A stretch of DNA of 32,659 nucleotides from Bacteroidota bacterium (lineage in GTDB: Bacteria; Bacteroidota; Bacteroidia; Chitinophagales; Chitinophagaceae). The notes under the pieces were generated by a model. That model was not told where the DNA came from and ran no database searches. It saw only the letters and a list, made by a program, of their open reading frames with translations. The position numbers and the translations under genes are program-made. The DNA is taken from positions 1-32,659 of the forward strand of contig JAKAKY010000006.1 in NCBI GenBank assembly GCA_021824365.1, in the 5' to 3' direction. Numbering within the stretch: the first letter of the stretch is position 1; every line of letters starts with the position of its first letter. Shown here one piece after another: positions 26,602 through 32,659 of the stretch.

Positions 26602-27216
26602 TTATAGAAATCCTTTTTTTACCGCAGCATGAATTAAAGCCGCTGTATTTTTAACGTTGAATTTGGTGAGAATGTTTTTTCGATGGGAGTCTACCGTAGT
26701 GGTACTAATAAAAAGCCGTTTACCAATTTCCGGATTCGTTAATCCTTCTGCAATGAGCGCCAATACCTCTTTTTCCCGAAGTGTTAATATTATTTCATCA
26801 TCAGGCTGATAGCGGAGTGTTTGGGCTGCCTCGAAACTAAAATAAGATTTCCCTTTCATGGTCATCTCTATGCATTCTAACATTTCTTTGGTAGAAGCAT
26901 TTTTCAGCAGGTAGCCGGAAGCGCCATTTTCTATCATTTTTTTAATAAAACTTTGCTGATTAAATGTACTTAATGCCACCACATTTACGGATGGATATTT
27001 TTCTTTAACGGTTTTGCATAGTTCAATACCGCTGGTATCGGGTAAATTAATATCCATTAAAATGATATCGGGTAATTGTTGTTGTAAAAATGCCATACAT
27101 GATGATGCATTCATAGCATGGCCTACCCATTCTATATTTTTTTCATGTTGTAGTAAGGCATGAATACCTTCTATCACCATGTAATGATCATCTACTATAA
27201 ATAATTTAGTTATCAT
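26602..27216 (-). CDS. NarL/LuxR-family response regulator
   Basis: 204 residues. The receiver domain (about 1-120) has the acidic pair in FIVDDHY, phospho-acceptor D55 in IILMDINLPDTSG, and the switch lysine in GYLLKNAS. The C-terminal HTH (about 140-204) reads LTLREKEVLALIAEGLTNPE, then KRLFISTTTVDSHRKNIL, the classic LuxR motif. It overlaps the upstream kinase by an ATGA, so the two are translationally coupled and form a cognate pair. Binding targets are unknown. Confidence 0.96.
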   Translation of the reverse strand: MITKLFIVDDHYMVIEGIHALLQHEKNIEWVGHAMNASSCMAFLQQQLPDIILMDINLPDTSGIELCKTVKEKYPSVNVVALSTFNQQSFIKKMIENGASGYLLKNASTKEMLECIEMTMKGKSYFSFEAAQTLRYQPDDEIILTLREKEVLALIAEGLTNPEIGKRLFISTTTVDSHRKNILTKFNVKNTAALIHAAVKKGFL

Positions 27217-29177
27217 ACCTTCAATTCTATGTGAATAGAAGTGCCTTTTTCCGGTGCTGATTGAATATTAACCTTGCCTTTCAAATATTCTATCCTGCTA
27301 CGTATGTTATTCCATCCCATGCCTTTAGCATAATGGTAAGCATTTTCAGGCATTCCTTTTCCGTCATCCTCCACCGTAATATGTATAATGGGAGCATCAT
27401 AGCTAATTTGCACAATAGCCTGTTGGGCTGCTGCATGTTTTAATATGTTGTTGATGAGCTCTTGTGCAATTCTATACATGTTGATGGCAATGGTTTGCCC
27501 AAATAGTTTATCTTGTATACCAATGCTTTGGTATTTAATTTGAAGGGCACCGGTTTTATTGGTTTGCTGGCATAAATCTTTTAATGCGGCATCTAACCCA
27601 AATTTTAGAAGTGCTTCCGGCATCATATTGTGTGCAACCCTGCGCATTTCATTGATGGATGAGTCGAGCATATCAATACTTCTTTCAAATGCCTGCTGAT
27701 TTTCAGGTGTCATGATTAAATTTTGTTTCATATGGCTCATAGTGTATTTTATTCCTGATAACATACCGCCTAATCCATCATGTAAATCTTTTGCCAAACG
27801 GGTACGTTCTTGTTCTTCTCCCTTTAATACCGCTTCTGCTGCAGCTAACTGCTGTTGGGTTTCTAATTCAATTATTCTTTGTTGTTGTAAGGCTTGTTTG
27901 TGTTTGTAATTACGATACGATAATGCACCAATGATAAAAAAAGTAATAGATGCACCAATTAATATGTAGTTCCATATTTTATTTTGTTGCAATTCCAATT
28001 GTTGTAATTTTTTTTCAGCTTCTAACTGGCTAATTTGTAATTCTTTGTTGGTATTTTGGTATTTGGCCTCTAATTCGTATAAATAGTTCCGGTTACTTCT
28101 GGCATCTAATGAGTCTTTGAGTATGGTAAATTCTTTTAAGTAACTGAATGCCTGTGGTAGGTTACCTAATTTCTCTTCTACAATCACCATATTTTCCAAA
28201 CCATATTTTGTAATTTGGTCTAACCCCGATTTCCGTGCTAAGTCAATTGATTTTGTTAAATACGCTTTAGCCTCAGTGTAAGCACCTTTTTGCATGTAAT
28301 CAAAACCAATTTCTTCCATCGTGGCAATAATTTCATATTGGTTATGAATTTTTTCCATCAATTCCAACGCTTTTTTTCTATTGTTGATGGAGGAATCAAA
28401 TTGTTGTTTTCCTTCAGAAAAATATTTACCAATCAAATTATAAGTTTTTCCCTCTCCATAATTATTTTGAAGTGTATGCGCCAATGCCACATTTTTTTTC
28501 AATGGAATTAATACACTGTCAAATTGTTTCAATGCTAAGTGGATAGACATTTCCTGATTAATGGCAATAATAGTTTTTCCGGGATCATTTAATTTTACTG
28601 CAGCTTTGTTTGCTTCTTTAGCATATTGCAACGCATGTTCATTATCATTTAAAAATGAATAGATGGTAGCCAGATTGATATAAGGGAAAAAGAAAAGTCC
28701 TTCTTCATGAATTGATTTAAAAATATTGGCTGCTTCTAAATATTGAATGGTGGCTGAATCGTATAGCTGGCGTTGATGATAAAGCACTCCATAATTATGT
28801 GTTAATAATCCCTTTTGCTTAATGAATAATTTGTCTTTTTCATTTTTTACTATGCTATATGCTTTGTCATAAAAAAATTTACCACTATCGGTAATAGCTT
28901 TATCTACATATAAAACACCTCTTAATCTATACGCAATAGATAAGCCAAGTTTGTAATTTGTTTTTTTAGCCAGTAGAATAGATTGCCAGGCTAATTCTGC
29001 TGCTTTTTCCGGATTTAAAAATTGCAACTTGCCAATTATATCATTCATTCGGTTTACTTTGGCGGTATCATTCGGAAGGTATTGTAATGCATTCTGTAAA
29101 CTGTCTACTTCTCTTGTTTGCGCAAATGAAACAAAGCGTACTATTAAAAATAAATAGATAAAATAAATTTTTTTCAT
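27213..29177 (-). CDS. TPR-containing sensor histidine kinase
   Basis: 654 residues. A signal peptide (IYFIYLFLIVRFVSFAQ) is followed by a periplasmic tetratricopeptide array (about 25-350, for example LQYAKEANKAAVKLNDPGK, AYLTKSIDLARKSGL), a coiled segment, one membrane helix (about 397-416, IWNYILIGASITFFIIGAL) and a second coiled segment. The kinase core has HisKA_3 (RTRLAKDLHDGLGGMLSGI, with H) and HATPase (IAQELINNILKHA, then DDGKGMP and GMGWNNIRSR). This is the common Bacteroidota sensor layout paired with LuxR regulators. The ATGA overlap with the regulator gene confirms the pair. The TPRs likely bind a protein or peptide signal that cannot be named here. Confidence 0.95.
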   Translation of the reverse strand: MKKIYFIYLFLIVRFVSFAQTREVDSLQNALQYLPNDTAKVNRMNDIIGKLQFLNPEKAAELAWQSILLAKKTNYKLGLSIAYRLRGVLYVDKAITDSGKFFYDKAYSIVKNEKDKLFIKQKGLLTHNYGVLYHQRQLYDSATIQYLEAANIFKSIHEEGLFFFPYINLATIYSFLNDNEHALQYAKEANKAAVKLNDPGKTIIAINQEMSIHLALKQFDSVLIPLKKNVALAHTLQNNYGEGKTYNLIGKYFSEGKQQFDSSINNRKKALELMEKIHNQYEIIATMEEIGFDYMQKGAYTEAKAYLTKSIDLARKSGLDQITKYGLENMVIVEEKLGNLPQAFSYLKEFTILKDSLDARSNRNYLYELEAKYQNTNKELQISQLEAEKKLQQLELQQNKIWNYILIGASITFFIIGALSYRNYKHKQALQQQRIIELETQQQLAAAEAVLKGEEQERTRLAKDLHDGLGGMLSGIKYTMSHMKQNLIMTPENQQAFERSIDMLDSSINEMRRVAHNMMPEALLKFGLDAALKDLCQQTNKTGALQIKYQSIGIQDKLFGQTIAINMYRIAQELINNILKHAAAQQAIVQISYDAPIIHITVEDDGKGMPENAYHYAKGMGWNNIRSRIEYLKGKVNIQSAPEKGTSIHIELKV

Positions 29178-29356
29178 ATACTTTCCTTACACGCATGAGA
29201 CGCTTCAACAAATTAAGCATTTTATCAACGTCCTGCTTATCCCCCTTTTAGGTGATTTTATCTGTTTACAGGAAATATCCTGCTTTTAAGGGATTGATAA
29301 AACAACATTGACAGTTCATTTTTACATCATCATTAAAAAATAAAAAACCATACATC

Positions 29357-29806
29357 ATGAAAAAGTTATTATTTATCCTGCCGGTCTTTTTTTTCGGTCT
29401 TGCCGTGAATGCACAGCAAACAGAAGACGATATCTATGTAGGCAAAAGCAGAACGTTTGGAAACTATAAAGGAACCGGTATCGTTTATGCCAACTCCAAG
29501 CCCCTGCCTGGTATGGATAGAAATGTAAAACAAATTAAAGGCGGGTCAAACGTAACCGGCATCGTAGTAAAAGTTGAGTGGTGCGAAGAAGATTGTATGA
29601 CAGTGTGGGTAAAAAAAGATGATGGAACTACAATTTCAATTGGAACAAAAGACTACGGTTTTACTGTTCCTAAAGATATAGTGGGAAAAAGAATTAATAT
29701 AGAAGGAATAGACCCCGCCAGGCCCATCCGTGAAAGAAGGACTGTGACAAAAGAGTATCAGAAAGACATTCAGTTTGTGGCAACAGGTATAAAGATTATG
29801 GACTAA
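29357..29806 (+). CDS. Secreted DUF4920-like protein
   Basis: 149 residues with a signal peptide (LFILPVFFFGLAVNAQ). The mature part shows DUF4920-like blocks: a two-cysteine motif WCEEDCMTVWV, where the family usually has CKxxGCWM, then KDYGFTVPKDIVGKRINIEG and the ending DIQFVATGIKI. DUF4920 proteins are small exported beta-rich proteins of unknown function. It is the first gene of a + strand run of secreted-protein genes (58-base gap to the next). The base usage of this run has more C-ending codons than the genes before it, by eye. The match is from memory of motifs. Confidence 0.78.
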   Translation: MKKLLFILPVFFFGLAVNAQQTEDDIYVGKSRTFGNYKGTGIVYANSKPLPGMDRNVKQIKGGSNVTGIVVKVEWCEEDCMTVWVKKDDGTTISIGTKDYGFTVPKDIVGKRINIEGIDPARPIRERRTVTKEYQKDIQFVATGIKIMD

Positions 29807-29864
29807 AAAAGTGTAAAAGAGCCATTAGAAAAATAGCTATTGGTTACATTCTAAATAATTGACG

Positions 29865-30362
29865 ATGAAAAAATATATTCTCCGGTTTTCCATAGCAATG
29901 ATCACTATTGTTTCGGTTGGCTTTGCCCAAACCAACAGCTTTGATGTATTCACCTATCAGCCACCGGAGTTTTTTACCAAAAGTGAATTACCGGCAATGG
30001 TACAATTTAATTTGACCAATAATGATGGCAGTTTCTGTACTATTATATTGTACAAAAGTATGCCTGCCAAAGATGATATGCTAAAAAATGTAACCAGCCA
30101 GTGGAATGAACAGGTGGTAAAGCGATTAAGTAAAGCAGATAAAAAGCCAGGCAAAGTTTACACACAGCAAATGTGGGATGGATGGGCAACTGCATTAGCG
30201 ATTGGCAATTTTTATCAAAACAAAAAGAAGTGCGTTGTGATGCTGTATTCATTCCGAAAAAATAAAACAGCTGCCTGTGGCGTATTTGCTTTCAGCGATA
30301 AATCTTTTAAAGGACCGGTAGAACTATTTTCAAAAAACCTTCACCTAATAAATAACAAATGA
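29865..30362 (+). CDS. Secreted protein of unknown function
   Basis: About 165 residues with a signal peptide (FSIAMITIVSVGFAQ). No family is recognised. The mature part begins SFDVFTYQPPEFFTKSE, has a beta strand series (FCTIILYKSMPA), a tryptophan-rich middle (QWNEQVV, MWDGWATALAIGNF) and a second strand series (KCVVMLYSFRKNKTAACGVF). The frame opens at a TTG at 29859, but the ATG at 29865 gives MKKYILRF, the usual leader. It overlaps the next gene by an ATGA (30359-30362), so the two are translated together. Confidence 0.75.
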   Translation: MKKYILRFSIAMITIVSVGFAQTNSFDVFTYQPPEFFTKSELPAMVQFNLTNNDGSFCTIILYKSMPAKDDMLKNVTSQWNEQVVKRLSKADKKPGKVYTQQMWDGWATALAIGNFYQNKKKCVVMLYSFRKNKTAACGVFAFSDKSFKGPVELFSKNLHLINNK

Positions 30363-30826
30363 AAAAGTATTTTTTATTCCTGTTTTGCTTTCTGCTTTCA
30401 GCAACCATCGCTTCTGCACAGTCAAAACCAAAGACTCCCGTAAAAAACAATATGCAGGCGTTGCAAAAACTGTTAACCGGAACTGGCCTGCCTTTCAGAA
30501 TGGTTAACGACAGCCTTGCAGCCATACCTTATGGAGGCGAAAACATTACATCGTACCAGGTAGTAGTGCAAAAGGTGGGTGATTTGTATATTATTTATAC
30601 CAATCTTACAGAAGCCCTGCCAGGAAAAATTGACGAAACAAAATACAAATACCTGCTACAGCAAAACGATCATTATGATGTGGTAAAAATAGGAATGAGT
30701 GCAGATGATAACACAGTGTACTTAAGAGCCGATATTTATAAAACAGCTACTACTTCAGCGATACTGACGAGGATTATAAAACAAGTTGCCAATGTTGCCA
30801 ATATTGTAGCCGGAGATATGAAATAA
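30359..30826 (+). CDS. Secreted YbjN-like protein
   Basis: 155 residues with a signal peptide (FLFLFCFLLSATIASAQ). The mature part, from about 33, reads NMQALQKLLTGTGLPFRMVN, then SYQVVVQKVGDLYIIYTNL, KYLLQQNDHYDVVKIGM and a helical end. This alternation resembles the YbjN/type-III-chaperone-like fold (helix, strands, then helix). Resemblance is weak and structural, so function is open. Translation is coupled to the preceding gene by the ATGA; the next gene starts 28 bases on. No catalytic residues are apparent. Confidence 0.72.
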   Translation: MKKYFLFLFCFLLSATIASAQSKPKTPVKNNMQALQKLLTGTGLPFRMVNDSLAAIPYGGENITSYQVVVQKVGDLYIIYTNLTEALPGKIDETKYKYLLQQNDHYDVVKIGMSADDNTVYLRADIYKTATTSAILTRIIKQVANVANIVAGDMK

Positions 30827-30854
30827 AATTCGCTAAATAAAAAAATTATTTACA

Positions 30855-32659
30855 ATGAAAAAATATCTTCTTGCATTTGTCCTGCTTCTTCTAATGACAG
30901 TTGCTTTTGCACAAACCAAACCTAAATCAAAAGAAAAACCCCCCACCCAAAAAGAGATGAATGACATGATGAAGGAAATGCAAAAAGCAATGGATGAGAT
31001 GAGTCCGGAAGATAAAAAGATGATGGATAGCATGGGTATTAAAATGCCTTCAACAAAAACAATTCCCAAACTAACCGATAAACAATTGGCTGATGCATGG
31101 GAAGATGAAAACCGTATTGTGCCTAAACGAGATGCTGTACGTATTGCCGCCATACCAAAAGCAGTTACGGATTCAAAAATGGGAGCGTATATAGCAGCAG
31201 TACAAAATAAATTAGCATCAACTTTTAAACCCGAAGTGATAACAATGGGAAATAAAGTGTATGACTATGTAAAGTCAAACAGTAAAAGCACAGGCCAGGC
31301 AGGTAATATGGCGATGGGTCTTTGGATGGCGGGCAAGCCGGAGATAGCTTTATATGTTTTAGGAAAATTATGTGCAGCAGATGCCGGCAACACCGATAAC
31401 CTCAGTAATTATTCGGCTATGCTTTCCATGCAGGGAGCACAGCATCTGGCTATTCCTATTCTCAATAACCTCAATGCTAAATATCCAAAAAACAGTACGC
31501 TGCTTAATAATCTCGGGCAGGCGTGGTTTGGTCTTGGCGAAATTGGTAAAGCCGAAAAATACATTGATAGCGCCATACATATCTACGCTTATCACCCGCA
31601 GGCTAATCTTACTAAATCATTGATAGAAGAAAGCAAGGGTAACAAGCAAGGAGCCATTGATGCCGCTAAACGCAGTATTGCAAAAGCCTACAGCATGGAC
31701 AAAGAAAACCGTTTAAACAAGTTGGGTTACAAACTCCAAACTAAAGATGTAGCCTGGGATAAGCCCATGCCACAAGATGCACTGGGACTGGAGAAATTTA
31801 AATGGCCCGATTACCCTATGAATGTTGAAGAAAGCGAAGTGTTGGAAGTTGAATGGGATGCATTTAAGAAAAAATGCCAGGAGGATTTAGAAGAATTGAG
31901 AATGCAGGAGAAAACCCTTGAAAAGCAAGTGGAGGAAGCAAACAATGTGCGGACAAAGCAATTACCGCAGGTAGGTCAAAGAGGGATAATGGTTTATCTC
32001 TTTCCACCCCTTGCACATAAAGCCATGGCAAAACTCAGTTACCTCGTTGTTGACAAAGACGGGCATATTGCATTCTCGCACCAGAAAAAAGCACAGGCAG
32101 TAGCCAATGCAAACATTGAGATAGCAAAGTTCGAAGACATACTCTCCAACCAGATAAAAGTACTGAACAAACAATACGAAGATGATTTCGGAGAAGGCAA
32201 GCCAAACCCATTTGATGCTGCCTGCGCCGACTATAACAAGGCAAGCAATTCCTTTCTGAGTTCATCTAACACATTATTGCGGGATGCATTCGTTGATTTT
32301 CTTGGTTTCATGCGACGCAAGATCAATAATGAAATGTATTACTATCAATATACAATGTGGCCGGAAAATTTTGAATTAGCAAAAGTTCAGGCAAAGATGA
32401 GTTGGCTCTCGTTATTAGTGAATCAGAACCCGAGGTTCAAAGATAAAAATGGCTGGTGTCAGGACAAGATTGATTCGGCAGAAGGAAAACCTTTCAAGCT
32501 GTCAAAATTTGATGATATAGCTTGCCAGTACAAAGCTACTATGGATTTAAAAATAATAAAGTTTACAAACAACTGCAGCCGCATGACCAGTGAGTTTGAT
32601 TTTATGTTTCTAAACTATGTTAGAAAAGATGATTTTGAGCGGGCAGAAGGTGACACTTA
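30855..32659 (+). CDS. Large secreted TPR protein, cut by window end
   Basis: An open frame of 601 codons runs to the window edge without a stop, so the C-terminus is missing. It starts with a signal peptide (LLAFVLLLLMTVAFAQ), then a Met-rich segment (about 35-65) with MNDMMKEMQKAMDEM and SPEDKKMMDSMG. Next comes a PKRDAVRIAAIPK motif, then tetratricopeptide repeats (about 150-290; for example LLNNLGQAWFGLGEIGKAEK and IDSAIHIYAYHPQAN). Past a coiled segment (about 335-380) lies a long alpha-rich domain with several cysteines and NNEMYYYQYTMW. No family for the later domain is recognised. It sits 28 bases after the YbjN-like gene in the same run. It is likely a periplasmic or surface scaffold. 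Confidence 0.8.
   Translation, partial: MKKYLLAFVLLLLMTVAFAQTKPKSKEKPPTQKEMNDMMKEMQKAMDEMSPEDKKMMDSMGIKMPSTKTIPKLTDKQLADAWEDENRIVPKRDAVRIAAIPKAVTDSKMGAYIAAVQNKLASTFKPEVITMGNKVYDYVKSNSKSTGQAGNMAMGLWMAGKPEIALYVLGKLCAADAGNTDNLSNYSAMLSMQGAQHLAIPILNNLNAKYPKNSTLLNNLGQAWFGLGEIGKAEKYIDSAIHIYAYHPQANLTKSLIEESKGNKQGAIDAAKRSIAKAYSMDKENRLNKLGYKLQTKDVAWDKPMPQDALGLEKFKWPDYPMNVEESEVLEVEWDAFKKKCQEDLEELRMQEKTLEKQVEEANNVRTKQLPQVGQRGIMVYLFPPLAHKAMAKLSYLVVDKDGHIAFSHQKKAQAVANANIEIAKFEDILSNQIKVLNKQYEDDFGEGKPNPFDAACADYNKASNSFLSSSNTLLRDAFVDFLGFMRRKINNEMYYYQYTMWPENFELAKVQAKMSWLSLLVNQNPRFKDKNGWCQDKIDSAEGKPFKLSKFDDIACQYKATMDLKIIKFTNNCSRMTSEFDFMFLNYVRKDDFERAEGDT

Follow-up and report, generated by a model that had tools for sequence, protein, structure and literature searches.

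A variable array of exported-protein genes in Chitinophagaceae, probably controlled by its own two-component system

Genes for exported proteins lie divergently from a sensor kinase

The DNA analysed here, referred to as the window, is a 32,659-nucleotide stretch from a Bacteroidota bacterium of the family Chitinophagaceae (GCA_021824365.1, JAKAKY010000006.1), which makes up the entire contig C71 of a 2.9-Mb draft genome in 287 contigs. At its right end, four genes for exported proteins (genes 1–4) face away from the genes for a sensor histidine kinase with tetratricopeptide repeats (TPR) and a response regulator. Comparison with related genomes leads us to propose that this region is probably the upstream end of a longer array of exported-protein genes that is run by its own two-component system, directly switched by it, and encodes a set of proteins acting in the cell envelope. 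The genes are:

26602..27216, minus strand: response regulator with a receiver and a LuxR/GerE-type DNA-binding domain, recognition-helix residue D176
27213..29177, minus strand: sensor histidine kinase with a signal peptide (A↓Q), a TPR sensor, a transmembrane segment near residue 401, and HisKA_3 and HATPase_c domains
29357..29806, plus strand: gene 1, exported DUF4920 protein of 149 aa, lineage-specific member of the run
29865..30362, plus strand: gene 2, exported protein of 165 aa with a predicted PsbP/Mog1 fold, short form of partner family F02
30359..30826, plus strand: gene 3, exported orphan protein of 155 aa
30855..32659, plus strand: gene 4, exported TPR protein of 713 aa, of which 601 aa lie in the window (open at its end) and the last 112 on contig C237

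Domains were called with Pfam and NCBIfam models, and folds were assigned by searching AlphaFold2 (AF2) models with Foldseek. The kinase retains an intact DLHDGLG box and matches Pfam TPR_12, HisKA_3 and HATPase_c; with a TPR sensor bounded by the signal peptide and a transmembrane segment (located by hydropathy), plus the kinase core, it has a FimS-like layout. The regulator matches Response_reg (PF00072, 6.5e-25) and GerE (PF00196, 9e-20), which places it in the LuxR/NarL type. Both genes diverge from genes 1–4 across a gap of 179 bp. A preliminary description of this DNA had noted the divergent kinase as a mere neighbour of the run; conserved co-location, described below, instead points to kinase and regulator as part of the system.

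As that description had stated, genes 1–4 share one strand, include a single ATGA overlap between the gene 2 stop and the gene 3 start (30359–30362), and each encode a Sec signal peptide. All four signal peptides end in A↓Q, which corresponds to the Bacteroidetes "Q-rule" (PMC5837995). Q-rule signal peptides are found in 65% of array genes versus 20% of the other genes at the same loci. The suggested richness in C of the codons was a weaker signal: third-position C amounts to 18–20% in genes 1–4 and 15% in kinase and regulator, but all window genes span 14–24%, and since the values lie inside this range we rejected them as a sign of foreign origin.

Genes 1, 2 and 3 were compared with 58–59 related genomes. 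Gene 1, earlier called DUF4920-like, passes the gathering score of Pfam DUF4920 (PF16267; 30.2 versus 25 bits, residues 65–119), and its family occurs in 22 of 59 genomes, with no match in other genomes at gene 4 loci. Gene 2 has no Pfam match, and no Pfam family, those of PsbP/Mog1 type included, reaches it or its long forms convincingly. Its AF2 model (pLDDT 80), searched with Foldseek, retrieved PsbP (1v2b_B, E 5.8e-4, TM 0.57–0.61), MTC28 (4pws, 3.6e-4) and EagT6 (6xrf, 7.9e-4). For gene 3, no relative was found in 58 related genomes and no Pfam family scored above its cut-off; the proposed likeness to YbjN found no support, as no Pfam or NCBIfam YbjN model appeared at E ≤ 1 (CesT reached 0.034, under its cut-off).

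The array continues on a second contig

The expectation that the run continues past the window was borne out by a genome search with gene 4. It recovered contig C237 (G000:C237), which, when reversed, overlaps the last 165 bp of the window with 163 identities and extends the run by ~14 kb with more exported proteins. Read in the direction of the window, C237 first encodes the end of gene 4, then an F06 protein (328 aa, exported) and a protein with a PD40 propeller. The second gene 4 copy (717 aa) comes next, followed by a pair of F03 proteins, a protein of 121 aa and an F02 protein of 478 aa, the long form of gene 2. The far end of C237 holds an Hcp-like protein that carries a signal peptide, then an M48 peptidase and a second, broken copy of the PD40 gene; no contig extending past C237 was found. 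The second PD40 copy (L022:1-1378, the last gene of C237) is broken up over several frames and ends, at the edge of the contig, in a tail unlike the family; it looks like a decaying copy.

Gene 4 and its partners recur across the host family

We surveyed 394 genomes of the host family and detected the gene 4 family in 93, representing 43 of 101 genera. An order-level sample of 248 genomes gave 16 with a match to gene 4, all 16 within the host family. Gene order was read at 50 gene 4 loci, and kinase position was scored at the 40 of these with more than 4.5 kb upstream. The kinase is divergent and upstream in 27/40 loci, in 26 with plus-strand genes only in between, and the regulator was scored in 24. 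At least one of seven partner families is present in 46 of the 50 loci. F02 is the commonest (34 loci, within 12 kb of gene 4), followed by F03 (12); F06 and an OmpA form of F03 each occur in 9 loci, PD40 and fibre proteins each in 6, and Hcp-like proteins in 5. F02, the gene 2 family, occurs in 7/59 relatives, every one of which also has gene 4 or the kinase locus. Profile searches of the PDB and Pfam with F02 and F03 gave no convincing match apart from OmpA, which some F03 members hit.

Judged by gene order, genes 2 and 4, unlike genes 1 and 3, are members of a recurring locus. Genes 1–4 as a fixed unit were rejected, given that gene 3 lacks relatives and relatives of gene 1 are located elsewhere. 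The preliminary description had also suggested an undescribed envelope complex. What stands of this is a conserved cluster of exported proteins at tens of loci; the physical complex itself is conjectural. The array looks like a coherent, hitherto undescribed programme of the cell envelope, and literature searches found no description of this gene cluster.

Several variants of the locus were observed. In L046 (1-19001; G001, same genus), the same site carries OsmC, CDGSH, regulator, kinase and operator pair, with a single OmpA-type F03 gene replacing the array. Fibre proteins lie between kinase and gene 4 in some arrays (L047, L021), and the L021 fibre protein combines YadA-head repeats with Peptidase_S74. 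At L021:1-5719, one regulator is flanked by a pair of kinase genes belonging to the same family, adjoining a fibre-type array. A 1080-aa F02 member (L109:4748-7987) additionally has a Fibrobacter succinogenes major domain.

Predicted operators precede the array and its inner genes

Two sites were predicted in the divergent gap:

29240..29259, no strand assigned: predicted operator 1, TCCCCCTTTTAGGTGATTTT, at a distance of 63 bp from the start codon of the kinase gene
29278..29297, no strand assigned: predicted operator 2, TCCTGCTTTTAAGGGATTGA, whose start lies 38 bp beyond that of operator 1 and whose end lies 59 bp ahead of gene 1

The motif is a 20-bp imperfect palindrome present in nearly all of 40 kinase/array gaps, often twice. 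Where two sites occur, their start-to-start spacing is 37–39 bp in 14 of 23 loci, and both gap copies share one orientation although the flanking genes diverge. A 20-bp matrix trained on the kinase-proximal gaps and scanned over 1.18 Mb of loci yielded 56 kinase-proximal matches and 32 elsewhere, versus 3 in the shuffled-sequence control. Most of these 32 precede array genes, including those of kinase-less arrays (L019, L101, L112, L113, L123). Nearly all intergenic sites (79/83) lie within 250 bp of a start codon, and those nearest an array gene typically end 43–51 bp before it.

In the whole host genome, a pattern built from the window sites matched exactly at these two sites only, as follows by construction, and with up to two mismatches at five more places (control, 0); the looser matches that were inspected lie inside genes, look like chance and were rejected as operators. 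A strict degenerate pattern matched 16 times in 8 whole genomes, with 0 matches for the reversed control. Its matches outside genes lie at array loci, namely the window, G219 C11 and C15, and two loci of G331; the other matches fall within array genes or at a distance from them and look like chance.

The sites are of two types, CC(C/T)...GG and CAT...ATG, with half-sites concordant within sites (Fisher p 8e-6; sites not independent). The recognition helix of the regulator has TVD/E where the sites are CCC-type and TVN where they are CAT-type, and residue 176, a position that we take to align with a base-contacting NarL residue, agrees with operator type in 28/29 loci. This yields a concrete prediction of specificity by regulator residue 176, N versus D/E.

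In L091 and L102, the array gene 4 resembles that of L093. L091 is a suggestive case: its gene 4 is 75–82% identical to its L093 counterpart in the TPR and middle blocks; the L091 regulator falls in the N176 clade, and the L091 site has an AT-type 3' half, unlike the L093 type. Arrays and regulators seem to have been re-paired.

Gene 4 is a conserved TPR protein with a mosaic history

Gene 4 was divided into the following parts:

31077..31724, plus strand: TPR superhelix, residues 75–290, assigned from the AF2 model of the L018 relative, Foldseek TPR matches and a conserved block
31725..32489, plus strand: variable middle module, residues 291–545, with long helices and a history unlike that of the flanks
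32490..32659, plus strand: start of the C-terminal strand-rich domain, residues 546–713, with invariant C557 and C574

The protein had been described as large, Met-rich and TPR-containing. Its N-terminus is Met-rich, and its TPRs, which score under the Pfam cut-offs by sequence, are clear in the predicted fold of the L018 relative. In that model, residues 90–290 form a TPR superhelix, mostly at pLDDT 65–94, followed by long helical hairpins; Foldseek matched consensus TPR, OGT and MamA (E 4e-6 to 1e-4). We claim no fold for the C-terminal domain, where pLDDT is mostly <50. Gene 4 matches no named family beyond generic TPR. Cysteines 457, 535, 557 and 574 are invariant in 47/47 sequences, which suggests two disulfides.

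Between gene 4 and its tandem copy, identity is 62–73% in the N-terminal/TPR part, 21–35% in the middle and 73–86% at the end. The gene 4 middle module is most similar to that of L018/L019, in which the ends share only 32–38% identity with those of gene 4. Trees of the separate blocks conflict accordingly. For the middle, the AU test rejected gene 4 and the tandem copy as sisters (dlnL 190, p 7e-63); for the C-terminal domain, the two were joined with support 100 and a grouping with L018/L019 was rejected (p 2e-5), as it was by the tree of the TPR part (p 6e-4). Because of this conflict, the block trees indicate that either the middle of gene 4 was exchanged or its ends were homogenised. A second candidate mosaic, L028/L113/L122, was hinted at by identities and discarded, as trees do not reject a common history.

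A model for the array and its alternatives

We propose the following sequence of events. The TPR domain of the kinase would sense a periplasmic ligand or protein, and the kinase would phosphorylate the adjacent LuxR-type regulator. The regulator would then bind both 20-bp palindromes in the divergent gap, together with the copies before inner array genes, and thereby act as the direct switch of the array and probably also of its own operon. Array products would be exported via Sec and signal peptidase I and function beyond the cytoplasm as a set whose make-up varies, with the putatively disulfide-bearing TPR protein encoded by gene 4 as the constant element and PsbP-fold (gene 2 family), OmpA/lectin-like, β-propeller, Hcp-like or fibre-like proteins as its partners. 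The ends of gene 4 may hold the shared assembly, while the middle module may meet the variable partner; kept ends and an exchanged middle are what would be expected if the ends assemble and the middle contacts a variable partner.

Regulation of the array by the adjacent system is well supported by sequence evidence. Binding of the operators by this particular regulator, joint physical assembly and its purpose, and the role of the middle module are steps that we infer; activation as the sign of regulation is a guess. That the scheme extends to the whole family, as dedicated two-component and operator control of a modular exported assembly in which gene 4 swaps its middle between conserved ends and each lineage thereby has its own variant, we put forward tentatively, as a rather doubtful generalisation.

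Several points weigh against the proposed model. The kinase is missing nearby in 13/40 gene 4 loci, making the pairing common and not obligatory. Partner content is so variable that one fixed complex is unlikely, and some partners may be independent members of the regulon. As the operator matrix was trained on kinase-proximal regions, only matches elsewhere are independent, and loci from related genomes are themselves non-independent samples. Residue 176 changes once on the regulator tree, so that its correlation with operator type rests on one clade; an independent-pairs test of the two found one pair only and gave no statistical support beyond that clade. Finally, the clades for the mosaic test were chosen after the identities were known.

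The alternative that survives best is a loose regulon, in which unrelated exported proteins, as an envelope-stress or growth-state output, share control and never assemble jointly. We regard this as possible, though not the expected outcome: partner content does change between loci, genes 1 and 3 are lineage-specific, and inner genes often have their own predicted operator, but gene 4 forms a recurrent core that is accompanied by F02, F03 and F06 well beyond the kinase (46/50 loci), and TPR and OmpA/lectin domains fit scaffolding and anchoring. An unlikely option is a polymorphic surface system for cell contact (adhesion, recognition or competition), with the gene 4 middle as the variable specificity part. 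Tandem divergent gene 4 copies with a mosaic middle, the patchy presence of the family in the surveyed genomes, and the YadA-head/Peptidase_S74 fibres, Laminin_G and exported Hcp-like proteins of some arrays would suit such a system; the array of the window, however, contains no toxin, immunity or known adhesin domain, and its proteins have no match to a type IX secretion system (T9SS) domain, that is, no outer-membrane export signal.

It is improbable that the 20-bp motif is an RNA stem-loop or promoter element instead of an operator. An imperfect palindrome ~45 bp ahead of start codons could be either, but the gap copies are co-oriented between divergent genes at a fixed spacing, the strict pattern did not occur at other promoters of the 8 genomes, and half-site type tracks the recognition helix of the regulator. 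Least credible is an assembly artefact at the C71–C237 join, which would make the tandem copy and the mosaic artefacts too: the contigs do meet in a repeat-like part of gene 4, where the two copies are ~83% identical at the DNA level, with 2 mismatches in 165 bp, but the order after the join (gene 4, F06, PD40) recurs in L019 and L092, both copies have intact frames, and the mosaic is visible within the window contig alone, on which residues 546–602 are 86% identical to the tandem copy.

Under the proposed model of a dedicated two-component system, scattered hypothetical genes are united in a single regulon for which candidates for regulator, operator and core protein can be named, and their function becomes testable. 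About a quarter of the sampled family genomes carry gene 4, with partners that are mostly unnamed proteins, and gene 4 itself would be a natural example of modules being exchanged within an exported scaffold. New features are the predicted operators, paired in the gap and recurring ~45 bp before inner array genes and in kinase-less arrays, along with the operator-type residue of the recognition helix, gene 4 mosaicism and the four invariant cysteines.

Comparison with known systems

Among proteins with the PsbP fold are secreted proteins of mycobacteria and the Eag chaperones of type VI secretion, and the fold alone gives no function. Gene 2 resembles this group (PsbP, mycobacterial MTC28 and LpqN, Eag chaperones) in its predicted fold, at a sequence identity of merely ~6–15%. 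The Hcp-like member on C237 matches Pfam T6SS_HCP (PF05638; 38.3 bits, cut-off 23.5) but, unlike Hcp, carries a signal peptide; a search covering the array detected no other type VI secretion family.

PorE combines TPR, WD40-like propeller and OmpA-type domains. The same kinds of domain are found among the array proteins, but on separate proteins, and TPR is the only one of the three in gene 4 and its copy. PorE (PG1058) is a multidomain component of the T9SS (PMC5053529). Among array proteins, with the gene 4 C-terminus represented by the tandem copy, we found no significant match to a T9SS model and no sorting domain among the NCBIfam matches.

The nearest studied parallel is FimS/FimR of Porphyromonas gingivalis, in which a periplasmic TPR sensor kinase is paired with a regulator that governs clustered genes for exported surface proteins; FimR attaches directly to the mfa1 promoter and also binds the first fimA-cluster gene (PMC11053733, PMC1974823). 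Both systems combine a TPR sensor kinase and a DNA-binding regulator with a gene cluster for exported proteins. In contrast to FimS/FimR, no fimbrillin-type gene was recognised in the array, which has paired operators plus repeated inner operators (predicted). The window kinase scores 58.6 bits against the NCBIfam FimS model (NF053520), whose cut-off is 600, and because it fails this cut-off we did not file the system as a FimS/FimR member; by analogy, it is one that works like FimS/FimR.

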